A DNA stretch of 64,000 nucleotides. It comes from Marinobacter persicus (lineage in GTDB: Bacteria; Pseudomonadota; Gammaproteobacteria; Pseudomonadales; Oleiphilaceae). A model generated the notes under the pieces. It saw only the letters and a list, made by a program, of their open reading frames with translations. It did no database searches and was not told where the DNA came from. Both the position numbers and the translations under genes were made by a program. The stretch covers positions 1 through 64,000 of the forward strand of contig NZ_PTIV01000018.1 in NCBI RefSeq assembly GCF_002934325.1. Direction: 5' to 3'. This document shows positions 51,357 through 54,328 of this stretch, one piece after another (position 1 is the stretch's first letter; each line of letters starts with the position of its first letter).

Positions 51357-51385
51357 TTGAATCTGATTTTGTCAGCGTATATAGT
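51357..51385 (+). promoter_or_regulatory. Sigma70-like promoter of the riboswitch-nrdD transcript
   Basis: TTGAAT and TATAGT separated by 17 bp, just upstream of the cobalamin riboswitch. Confidence 0.55.
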
Positions 51386-51399
51386 AATTTTGTCTTGGT

Positions 51400-51575
51400 A
51401 AGCCACAACATGTTGTGTTTGTGGCAAGGAATCCGGTGAGAATCCGGAACTGACGCGCAGCGGTATTGGGGAACGACCGTGGCATGATGACACTGGCGCA
51501 AGCTGGGAAGTCGCCACGCAAGGCAGAGCCGAAAGGCTCACGCCCCTGAGTCCGAAGACCTGCCAGGATCACAAG
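51400..51575 (+). ncRNA. Cobalamin (adenosylcobalamin) riboswitch
   Basis: Conserved core segments are present in order: AAGGAATCCGGTGAGAATC, then CCGGAACTGACGCGCAGCGGT, and the B12 box GAGTCCGAAGACCTGCC with the distal GATC. About 130 nt separate it from nrdD. Binding of coenzyme B12 normally shuts expression off, so nrdDG would be expressed when B12 is scarce. Confidence 0.92.
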
Positions 51576-51704
51576 CACTGCACCTTCGCGATTCAGGGTG
51601 AACAGTTGATCATGTCTCGGGCACTCGCCCGTGGCTGGCCTCCTGTATTCGCGAACGTTGCTGCAAATATTGCGACAACCTGACGCGCTTCCAGGAGGAA
51701 CCTG

Positions 51705-53483
51705 ATGTCTGCCCACACCACCTCGCACCCTGTTGATCCGGCCTTGCTGGATATCTCCGCTACTGTTGGTGAATACCTGCACCGCAGCGACTGGCGGGTG
51801 AACGCCAATGCCAACCAGGGCTATTCCCTCGGTGGCCTGATTCTGAACACCGCCGGCAAGGTTATTGCCAACTACTGGCTGAACGAGGTGTATACCCCGG
51901 AAATCGGCCAGGCCCACCGGCAAGCAGACCTTCACATCCACGATCTGGACATGCTCAGTGGTTACTGTGCCGGCTGGTCTTTGCGCACCCTGCTGCACGA
52001 AGGCCTGAACGGTGTGCCGGGCAAGGTAGAAGCGGGCCCGCCAAAGCACCTCTCAAGCGCCATCGGTCAGATGGTCAACTTTCTCGGTACTCTGCAGAAT
52101 GAATGGGCTGGGGCCCAGGCCTTCAGCTCCTTCGACACCTACCTGGCCCCGTTTATTCGCAAGGACAACCTGGATTACGCCACCGTGCGCCAGTGCATCC
52201 AGGAATTTGTCTACAACCTGAACGTGCCATCCCGCTGGGGCACCCAGACTCCGTTCACCAACATCACCTTCGACTGGGTATGCCCGGACGACGTGCGCGA
52301 ACAGATACCGGTTATCGCCGGGGAGGAAATGCCGTTCAGCTACGGCAACCTGCAGGCCGAGATGGACATGATCAACCAGGCCTACATTGAGGTGATGACG
52401 GCGGGCGACAGCAAGGGCCGGGTGTTCACCTTCCCGATTCCTACCTACAACATCACCCGGGATTTCAACTGGGAATCCGACAATGCCCTGCGGCTGTTTG
52501 AGATGACTGCCCGCTACGGCCTGCCGTATTTCCAGAACTTCCTCAATTCCGACCTGGAACCCAACATGGTGCGCTCCATGTGCTGCCGCCTGCAGCTGGA
52601 CCTGAGGGAACTGCTCAAGCGGGGCAATGGCCTGTTCGGCTCAGCGGAACAGACTGGCTCCCTTGGAGTGGTCACCGTTAACTGTGCCCGGCTGGGTTAC
52701 CTTAATAAAGGTGATAAGCCGGCGCTCTTTGCCCGCCTGGATCAACTCATGGGCCTGGCCCGGGACAGTCTGGAAACCAAGCGCCAGGAGATTGGCCGGC
52801 TGATGGTGGAAGGCCTGTTCCCCTATACCAAACGCTATCTGGGGACCCTGAGAAACCACTTCTCCACCATTGGAGTGAATGGCCTGAATGAAATGGTCCG
52901 CAACTTCACCGGTGACCAGGAAGATATCAGCAGTGAGCAGGGCCGGGCCTTTGCGCTGGAACTGCTGGATCATGTGCGGGAGCGGATGAAGCAATACCAG
53001 GAAGAAACCGGCCATCTTTACAATCTGGAAGCCACCCCGGCCGAAGGCACCACCTACCGGTTCGCGAAGGAAGACCAGAAGCGGTTTGCCGACATCCTGC
53101 AGGCAGGCTCACCGGATGCCCCTTACTACACTAACTCCAGCCAGCTTCCGGTGGGCTACACCGACGATCCGTTTGAAGCCCTGGATCTTCAGGATGAGCT
53201 GCAAACCCGCTACACCGGCGGCACGGTGCTGCACCTGTATATGCGCGAACGCATCAGCGATGCCGCCACCTGCGGCCGGTTTGTGAAAACGGTGCTGGCG
53301 AATTACCGGCTGCCATACATTACGGTAACGCCCACTTTCTCCATTTGCCCGGTGCACGGGTACCTGCACGGAGAGCACGAATTCTGCCCGAAATGCGACG
53401 AGCTGTTGCTCGCCGGGCAGCTATCACAGCTGGCAACGGCCGGCACTTCCCCAAAAAGCAAAGAAGGAGTTCAGCATGGATAA
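51705..53483 (+). CDS. nrdD: Anaerobic (class III) ribonucleotide reductase NrdD, lacking its glycyl-radical tail
   Basis: A 592-residue catalytic subunit that reduces ribonucleoside triphosphates without oxygen. The barrel is recognisable (YSLGGLILNTAGKVIANYWL, DLHIHDLDMLSGYCAGW, NLNVPSRWGTQTPFTNITFD). Near the C-terminus are zinc-binding pairs, SICPVHG and FCPKCDE. No N-terminal ATP-cone is apparent. The sequence ends at KEGVQHG without the RVxGY glycyl-radical motif, which is found instead in the next, overlapping small ORF. It is controlled by the upstream B12 riboswitch. Confidence 0.93.
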   Translation: MSAHTTSHPVDPALLDISATVGEYLHRSDWRVNANANQGYSLGGLILNTAGKVIANYWLNEVYTPEIGQAHRQADLHIHDLDMLSGYCAGWSLRTLLHEGLNGVPGKVEAGPPKHLSSAIGQMVNFLGTLQNEWAGAQAFSSFDTYLAPFIRKDNLDYATVRQCIQEFVYNLNVPSRWGTQTPFTNITFDWVCPDDVREQIPVIAGEEMPFSYGNLQAEMDMINQAYIEVMTAGDSKGRVFTFPIPTYNITRDFNWESDNALRLFEMTARYGLPYFQNFLNSDLEPNMVRSMCCRLQLDLRELLKRGNGLFGSAEQTGSLGVVTVNCARLGYLNKGDKPALFARLDQLMGLARDSLETKRQEIGRLMVEGLFPYTKRYLGTLRNHFSTIGVNGLNEMVRNFTGDQEDISSEQGRAFALELLDHVRERMKQYQEETGHLYNLEATPAEGTTYRFAKEDQKRFADILQAGSPDAPYYTNSSQLPVGYTDDPFEALDLQDELQTRYTGGTVLHLYMRERISDAATCGRFVKTVLANYRLPYITVTPTFSICPVHGYLHGEHEFCPKCDELLLAGQLSQLATAGTSPKSKEGVQHG

Positions 53484-53622
53484 CCAGAAACTGCCCGATG
53501 ACAGTCAGCGCCAGCGCTGCGAAGTGTGGACCCGGGTAATGGGCTACCATCGCCCGGTCTCGGCCTTTAATAAAGGCAAGCAGTCCGAGCATCGCGAACG
53601 CACCCACTTCCGGGAGCGTTGA
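53476..53622 (+). CDS. Separate glycyl-radical domain of anaerobic ribonucleotide reductase
   Basis: A 48-residue ORF with core CEVWTRVMGYHRPVSAFNKG. RVMGY is the glycyl-radical signature of class III reductases, with Gly23 as the expected radical site, and the FNKGKxxEH tail matches the usual NrdD C-terminus. It has its own AAGGAG site seven bases before the ATG, and its ATG overlaps the nrdD stop (ATGGATAA), so it is translated separately, in a different frame. The domain would have to associate with the NrdD core in trans and be activated by NrdG, one base downstream. Confidence 0.85.
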   Translation: MDNQKLPDDSQRQRCEVWTRVMGYHRPVSAFNKGKQSEHRERTHFRER

Positions 53623-53623
53623 A

Positions 53624-54328
53624 ATGACTGCGGATAACCTGGTGATAGGGGGCATGGCCGCCTTCTCCACCGTCGATTATCCGCAACACCTGGCGGCAAC
53701 CCTGTTCCTGCAGGGTTGTCCCTGGCGTTGCCATTACTGCCATAACCCTCATCTCATACCACTGGAAGCCGGTGATGAAAACATAACCTGGCAAAAAGCT
53801 CACCGGCACCTGAAAAGCCGGCAGGGATTGCTGGACGCGGTGGTATTCAGTGGCGGCGAACCCACTATCCAGAAAGCCCTGCTACCAGCCCTGCAACAAA
53901 CCCGGGCCATGGGTTTTCGCAACGGCCTGCACACCGGTGCTCCGCACCTGAAACTGCTGGAGCCGTTGTTGCGCTGGCTGGACTGGGTGGGGCTGGATAT
54001 CAAAGCATTGCCCGCCGATTATGAAATCATCACTACCAGTCGTTACGCAGGTTCTGAGAGCTGGGCCGCCATTGAAGCGCTGCAAAATGCCGGTGTGGAT
54101 TTCGAGTGCCGGATGACCTGGCATGGAGCTCTGCAGTCACCGGAACAGGTAACCACCGTTGGGGAGCGGCTGGCGGATCAGGGCGTACGCCGGTTTGCCG
54201 TCCAGATTGCACGAAGCGACCAGATGCTGAATGGCGCCATAGGCGCAGGGCACCTGAGTGCGGAAGACAAACAGCGGGTACGGAATACACTCTCGCCATT
54301 CTTTGAAACCCTGGATGTCCGGGCGTAG
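53624..54328 (+). CDS. nrdG: Anaerobic ribonucleotide reductase activating enzyme NrdG
   Basis: A 234-residue radical-SAM activase that generates the glycyl radical. QGCPWRCHYCHNP carries the CX3CX2C motif, and VVFSGGEPTIQ the SAM-binding region. It starts one base after the stop of the glycyl-radical ORF, so the three genes form one unit. It is longer than E. coli NrdG and resembles the ~230-residue subgroup. Confidence 0.93.
   Translation: MTADNLVIGGMAAFSTVDYPQHLAATLFLQGCPWRCHYCHNPHLIPLEAGDENITWQKAHRHLKSRQGLLDAVVFSGGEPTIQKALLPALQQTRAMGFRNGLHTGAPHLKLLEPLLRWLDWVGLDIKALPADYEIITTSRYAGSESWAAIEALQNAGVDFECRMTWHGALQSPEQVTTVGERLADQGVRRFAVQIARSDQMLNGAIGAGHLSAEDKQRVRNTLSPFFETLDVRA

Follow-up and report, generated by a model that had tools for sequence, protein, structure and literature searches.

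A separately encoded glycyl-radical domain of anaerobic ribonucleotide reductase in Marinobacter persicus and related split loci

In the 64,000-nucleotide (nt) stretch of Marinobacter persicus DNA analysed here (contig NZ_PTIV01000018.1, positions 1 to 64,000; hereafter the window), the gene nrdD for the anaerobic, class III ribonucleotide reductase (RNR) stops short of the glycyl-radical loop, and the loop is encoded by a separate 48-codon open reading frame (ORF), here called the tail, between nrdD and the activase gene nrdG. We put a probability of about 0.72 on the reading that the radical domain has its own gene and that the 48-residue product would dock onto NrdD, receive the radical from NrdG and likely be replaced after cleavage by oxygen. 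As judged by sequence comparison, the presence of a separate radical-domain gene, rather than a sequencing error, is strongly supported; the split is widespread and has recurred, and purifying selection acts on it.

The split nrdD locus

The initial annotation had placed the radical motif (RVxGY) outside nrdD, in an overlapping ORF in another frame with its own AAGGAG and start, and with nrdG one base later, and all of this was borne out (Table 1). The C-terminal end of nrdD reads ...CPVHGYLHGEHEFCPKCDELLL...VQHG followed by TAA (53481-53483), and the radical loop is absent. The tail ORF, which lies in the +1 frame relative to nrdD, translates as MDNQKLPDDSQRQRCEVWTRVMGYHRPVSAFNKGKQSEHRERTHFRER, and its motif is RVMGY, with the radical glycine at Gly23 (codon GGC, 53542-53544). 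The tail stop is at 53622 and the nrdG start at 53624, and the three genes run in one direction. The anti-Shine-Dalgarno duplex energies are -10.3 kcal/mol for nrdD, -8.3 kcal/mol for the tail and -7.7 kcal/mol for nrdG. The start assigned to the tail is thus plausible, as AAGGAG lies six bases before the ATG and the duplex energy falls between the nrdD and nrdG values.

Table 1. Features at the nrdD locus of the window.
Feature	Position	Strand	Description
Cobalamin riboswitch upstream of nrdD	51379..51581	+	RF00174, 88.7 bits, E 1.4e-21
nrdD body	51705..53483	+	592 residues; class III RNR barrel and zinc ribbon, without ATP-cone and without glycyl-radical loop
AAGGAG, ribosome site of tail ORF	53464..53469	+	six bases 5' of ATG; -8.3 kcal/mol
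ATGGATAA, tail start overlapping nrdD stop by eight bases	53476..53483	+	sequence
Glycyl-radical domain (tail), separate 48-residue ORF	53476..53622	+	PF13597 531-562, E 2e-9
nrdG, radical S-adenosylmethionine (SAM) activase	53624..54328	+	NrdG2 type, 234 residues; TIGR02495, 167.1 bits, cut-off 131.15

In Pfam, the nrdD body matches positions 2-528 of PF13597 (588 bits) and the tail positions 531-562 of 562, exceeding the curated cut-off by itself. The body scores 459.7 bits against TIGR02487 (cut-off 326.35), as a class III NrdD barrel does, and 1044.7 bits against NF006126. The latter match begins at model position 93, and the window NrdD lacks the ATP-cone. The predicted zinc-ribbon ligands C548, H551, C561 and C564 are invariant in 23 aligned rows. 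The radical glycine sits not on this chain but in the separate ORF, and the activase partner NrdG (TIGR02495) is encoded one base downstream of the tail. By these matches, body and tail together are one complete class III RNR, cut just after the zinc ribbon, and the window enzyme is filed as a split variant of class III NrdD and not as the single-chain form.

Barrel, zinc ribbon and radical-loop sequence are shared with the single-chain NrdDh enzymes (4coi from Thermotoga maritima, and 4u3e from Neisseria bacilliformis), but the window enzyme carries its radical glycine on a separate chain. These two are the best PDB sequence matches of the body and the sole NrdD chains matched by the tail (E 0.7). 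In NrdDh enzymes the radical Cys of the finger loop is replaced by Leu, Ile or Phe (Phe in NrdDh4), and Phe311 of the window NrdD, placed by eye, lies at a probable site of this replacement. PMC4493059 describes an (S/M)CCR motif confined to NrdDh, in the form MCCR in NrdDh4; the window NrdD has MCCR (M292-C293-C294-R295), invariant in 23 rows.

Other RNR genes in pieces differ from this arrangement. In Pseudomonas aeruginosa NrdJab (PMC9669993), the catalytic chain is likewise spread over two genes, of which the second includes the zinc-finger part, but that enzyme is class II with B12 and its radical carrier is not released by the cut. Phage nrdD genes with introns or inteins (PMC3653736) are also in pieces, but through insertions into a single gene or as its fragments, whereas the loci described here retain just the radical domain, which has a start and a stop and is under selection. 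Text searches of an open-access library, which covers few subscription papers and in which most hits were judged by their listing entries, gave no paper on an NrdD whose radical domain is separate, or on such a domain standing alone in phages.

Translation, selection and spread of the tail

The order nrdD, small ORF, nrdG, which the initial annotation had proposed to look for elsewhere, was found in many genomes. A search among proteins of similar length (about 27-84 residues) returned 1757 relatives at E <= 1, and a genome scan gave at least 564 confirmed relatives and at least 80 named loci. Those listed include Marinobacter, Pseudomonas, Stutzerimonas, Kangiella, Halomonas and Ectothiorhodospira as well as Thiobacillus, Pleomorphomonas, Desulfuromonas and Bdellovibrionaceae. 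As had been suspected, such small proteins already have database entries that bear the whole enzyme's name, and a 48-residue member (P0038) is filed under Pseudomonas aeruginosa; papers on that species, in the portions available, write "nrdDG" and do not name a third gene.

The genome samples (relatives, genus, class, phylum and around G815) were chosen independently of the tail; the counts for relatives, genus, class and phylum were made by hand. A PF13597 match was present in 8 of 58 relatives, six of them split and two fused, and in 3 of 37 genomes of the genus (own genome included), all split. Besides the window's own genome, separate body and tail genes were seen in two genomes of the genus (G018, G020) and in Marinobacter oulmenensis. 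The class sample gave matches in 39 of 370 genomes (30 split, 7 fused, 2 partial) and the phylum sample in 66 of 397, with 19 split. A set of 218 fetched loci contained 208 body segments: 136 were split, 67 were fused, and the remaining 5 had no tail in their vicinity. When 120 distinct split loci were grouped by best-matching query, 109 were window-like, six resembled L198 and five L115 (the L142/L192 kind).

In the 109 window-like loci (window included), the frame of the tail with respect to that of the body is 0 in 21 cases, 1 in 41 and 2 in 47, the 21 frame-0 tails sitting behind a stop, and the gap between body and tail ranges from -38 to +258 nt. The tail starts with ATG in 108 and has a strong ribosome site in 107. 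A site of -5 kcal/mol or better precedes the tail in 97% of the 120 distinct split loci, compared with 58% of 136 for the best of three internal ATGs and 26% of 2098 single internal ATGs; the best-of-three value is the fair control, since the tail start was chosen partly by duplex energy. In genome G659, the tail stands with nrdG while the body, in the same orientation, lies 8-9 kb further downstream. The recurrence of the gene order in many genomes, the three frames, the tail's own start and ribosome site and this non-adjacent copy uphold the earlier judgement that the split is not a sequencing error.

All 109 distinct cellular tails of the window's clade (109 of 109) contain the glycine motif; the search pattern includes the glycine, and no cellular tail failed. 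Cys15 (53518-53520), eight residues N-terminal to the radical glycine, is conserved in 108 of the 109. For a 34-codon core of the tail, the ratio of nonsynonymous to synonymous substitution (dN/dS) has a median of 0.11; 2528 pairs with dS between 0.2 and 1.5 were compared, and no pair had a ratio of 1 or more.

A tree of the body with the radical loop removed, made from 50 rows of which 22 are split, 27 are fused and one is unassigned, requires six switches between the split and the fused state, at least four being forced by well-supported branches, and a single origin of the split occurred in 0 of 200 bootstrap trees. A quicker tree with one extra long-branch row gave seven changes, three forced. 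The separations occur within the window's clade, among the rows L164, L193 and L199 (around G815), and among the rows L142 and L192, close to a different NrdD subfamily. Three fused forms within the window's clade, L074, L158 and L159, look like re-fusions or retained ancestors, both of which are compatible with the tree.

The best evidence for a working split enzyme comes from Cupriavidus necator H16, whose plasmid pHG1 carries the split form (body 676 residues, tail 66 residues, nrdG). NrdDG of this strain is reported as essential for complete denitrification. Cloning only the annotated large nrdD, for example from this species, would omit the radical.

Tails without nrdD

Plasmid pALVIN01 of Allochromatium vinosum carries a 69-codon tail whose annotated neighbours include neither nrdD nor nrdG. 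A second tail lies on a different contig in genome G293, and two additional tails lie on other contigs in an Oxalobacter metagenome-assembled genome, mis-binning being possible in both. In the virus collection, the window-type tail was found at 76 loci and a body relative at 16, a ratio that is only indicative, as the body search patterns are less conserved. No body was present in the fetched stretch for 77 of 80 virus tail frames (one frame is spurious, and three loci came from another query). Whole-record searches for 50 of the 79 virus loci gave the tail only in 47, though the records may be virus fragments; the exceptions are a fused form (G973) and two records with the body too (G994, G1020). 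The lone virus ORFs (L221-L299) span roughly 47-144 residues. At the few loci inspected, their neighbours encode terminase and a Mu-type portal (L250), major head protein (L237), tape measure (L248), DNA polymerase (L271) and endolysin or lysozyme (L255, L285). The window tail has a match in PHROG 4132, a family of unknown function (E 9.8e-9). The lone tails in viruses and bacterial genomes suggest that the part may be useful alone, in trans.

A second stand-alone family was met in a sample centred on G815, where three genomes with a fused NrdD (G894, G927, G956) carry four tails of 103-123 residues (one frame may start earlier) with an extra N-terminal domain. One such 103-residue protein has 61 homologues, and T74, R75, T77, G78 and Y79 are invariant in 44 rows of the family, which has one copy on a phage-like contig and two more in virus contigs. 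In draft genome G956, the only NrdD found (L216, G956:C116) reads RVTSHGTH, in frame, where a relative has RITGYFTK, and so would lack the radical glycine; two stand-alone radical-domain proteins (L201, L202) are carried beside this glycine-less fused NrdD. On the phage-like contig (L202:2382-3431), a radical-SAM protein (phrog_9298) adjoins the stand-alone radical domain.

Role of the separate domain, and genome context

Oxygen cuts class III RNR at the radical glycine. In the mechanism favoured here, the tail would be translated as a free protein, dock non-covalently into the NrdD barrel and take the glycyl radical from NrdG, and an oxygen-cut tail would likely be exchanged for a fresh copy, a step borrowed from YfiD. 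A separate 48-residue carrier would limit the loss to a small peptide instead of the 640-residue enzyme, which would suit bacteria at the edge of anoxia. The spare parts of pyruvate formate-lyase, YfiD/GrcA and Y06I (the latter of phage T4), are likewise small, separately coded glycyl-radical-loop proteins and are phage-borne too. By analogy, YfiD-like replacement after oxygen damage is the likely purpose of the split, and the repair idea is plausible, with indirect support from the phage and stand-alone copies.

The likeness has its limits, as the tail matches only PF13597 and not PF01228, to which GrcA/YfiD belongs. The partner of YfiD has its own loop, whereas the window enzyme has none and would need the small protein from the outset. 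A genome search found no PF13597 match besides body and tail; the tail, as the sole loop source found in the genome, would therefore be an obligatory subunit first and a spare part only by extension. The pyruvate formate-lyase spare part is 14 kDa, compared with 48 residues for the tail, and the same 2021 paper (PMC8683613) treats only YfiD/GrcA and Y06I as validated and allows that other enzymes could have spare parts too. If exchange is true, the tail would be such a case for a glycyl-radical enzyme other than pyruvate formate-lyase, and tiny phage genes whose role is unknown would gain a function. The two genes also offer a natural two-piece system for dissecting radical transfer from NrdG to carrier to enzyme in vitro.

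A wider proposal, which we hold tentatively and at slightly less than even odds, is that a two-part class III RNR with a disposable radical cartridge occurs across much of the Proteobacteria and was freed several times, that phages carry the cartridge alone to supply the host RNR during infection, and that the 103-residue family serves NrdD with or without its own loop.

Several observations weigh against the favoured mechanism. No separated pair was found in 47 of the 66 matching genomes of the phylum sample, and in the G815-centred sample most of the 96 matching genomes (of 148) have one full-length match and no such pair. The tail adjoins nrdD and nrdG in nearly all fetched split loci, an adjacency equally compatible with an obligatory subunit and with a spare part, and the persistence of fused L074, L158 and L159 in the same clade means that the split is not required. 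Virus tails are less constrained than cellular ones (median dN/dS 0.24, 318 pairs, none at or above 1), and a single-chain structure model, which is uninformative on docking in trans, gave predicted local distance difference test (pLDDT) values of 57-85 for ten-residue blocks of the tail and 51 for the linker. The adjacency and the fused relatives are also what the main rival would predict, namely neutral gene fission, by which the tail, though a separate subunit, would fold onto NrdD a single time and stay there for good without exchange, and the split would confer no advantage. This rival is a serious contender, if an unlikely one, as at least four changes fell at one boundary and nrdD-less tails occur in 47 of 50 virus records and in bacterial genomes.

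A programmed +1 frameshift at the overlap would give one fused NrdD, the small ORF not being translated alone, and could draw on the eight-base overlap in the window and the ribosome-site-like sequence upstream. It is highly improbable in view of tails in all three frames, with gaps to +258 nt and stops before those in frame 0, of the distance between body and tail in G659, and of a ribosome site spaced for initiation at the tail ATG. Just as little credit is given to a regulatory subunit, whereby limited tail supply would set NrdD activity in place of the absent ATP-cone. The window NrdD does lack the cone, and dATP makes the radical domain mobile in P. copri NrdD, according to PMC11226230, but the split bodies L020, L153 and L157 retain the N-terminal region, and the ribosome site of the tail is no weaker than that of nrdG. 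A sequencing error or decaying gene, in favour of which nothing was found, is refuted by the separate pairs in G018, G020 and M. oulmenensis (L003) and by purifying selection on the tail.

In the rest of the M. persicus genome, no match to the PF01228 glycyl-radical domain was found, and two frames, of 925 and 717 residues, give matches to the large chain of RNRs of other classes, the 717-residue frame being B12-dependent NrdJ (TIGR02504). Given the cobalamin riboswitch ahead of nrdD and the presence of NrdJ, the likely role of the class III enzyme is in anoxic growth when B12 is lacking, and it is likely shut off when B12 permits class II.

Among the other loci, the genome of Kistimonas asteriae (L214, G803:C6) contains both forms of NrdD, one fused and one split, with only a few kilobases between them. 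Long in-frame insertions in the NrdD body, likely inteins, were seen in L151 (G174), G420, L209 (G888), G923 and G951.
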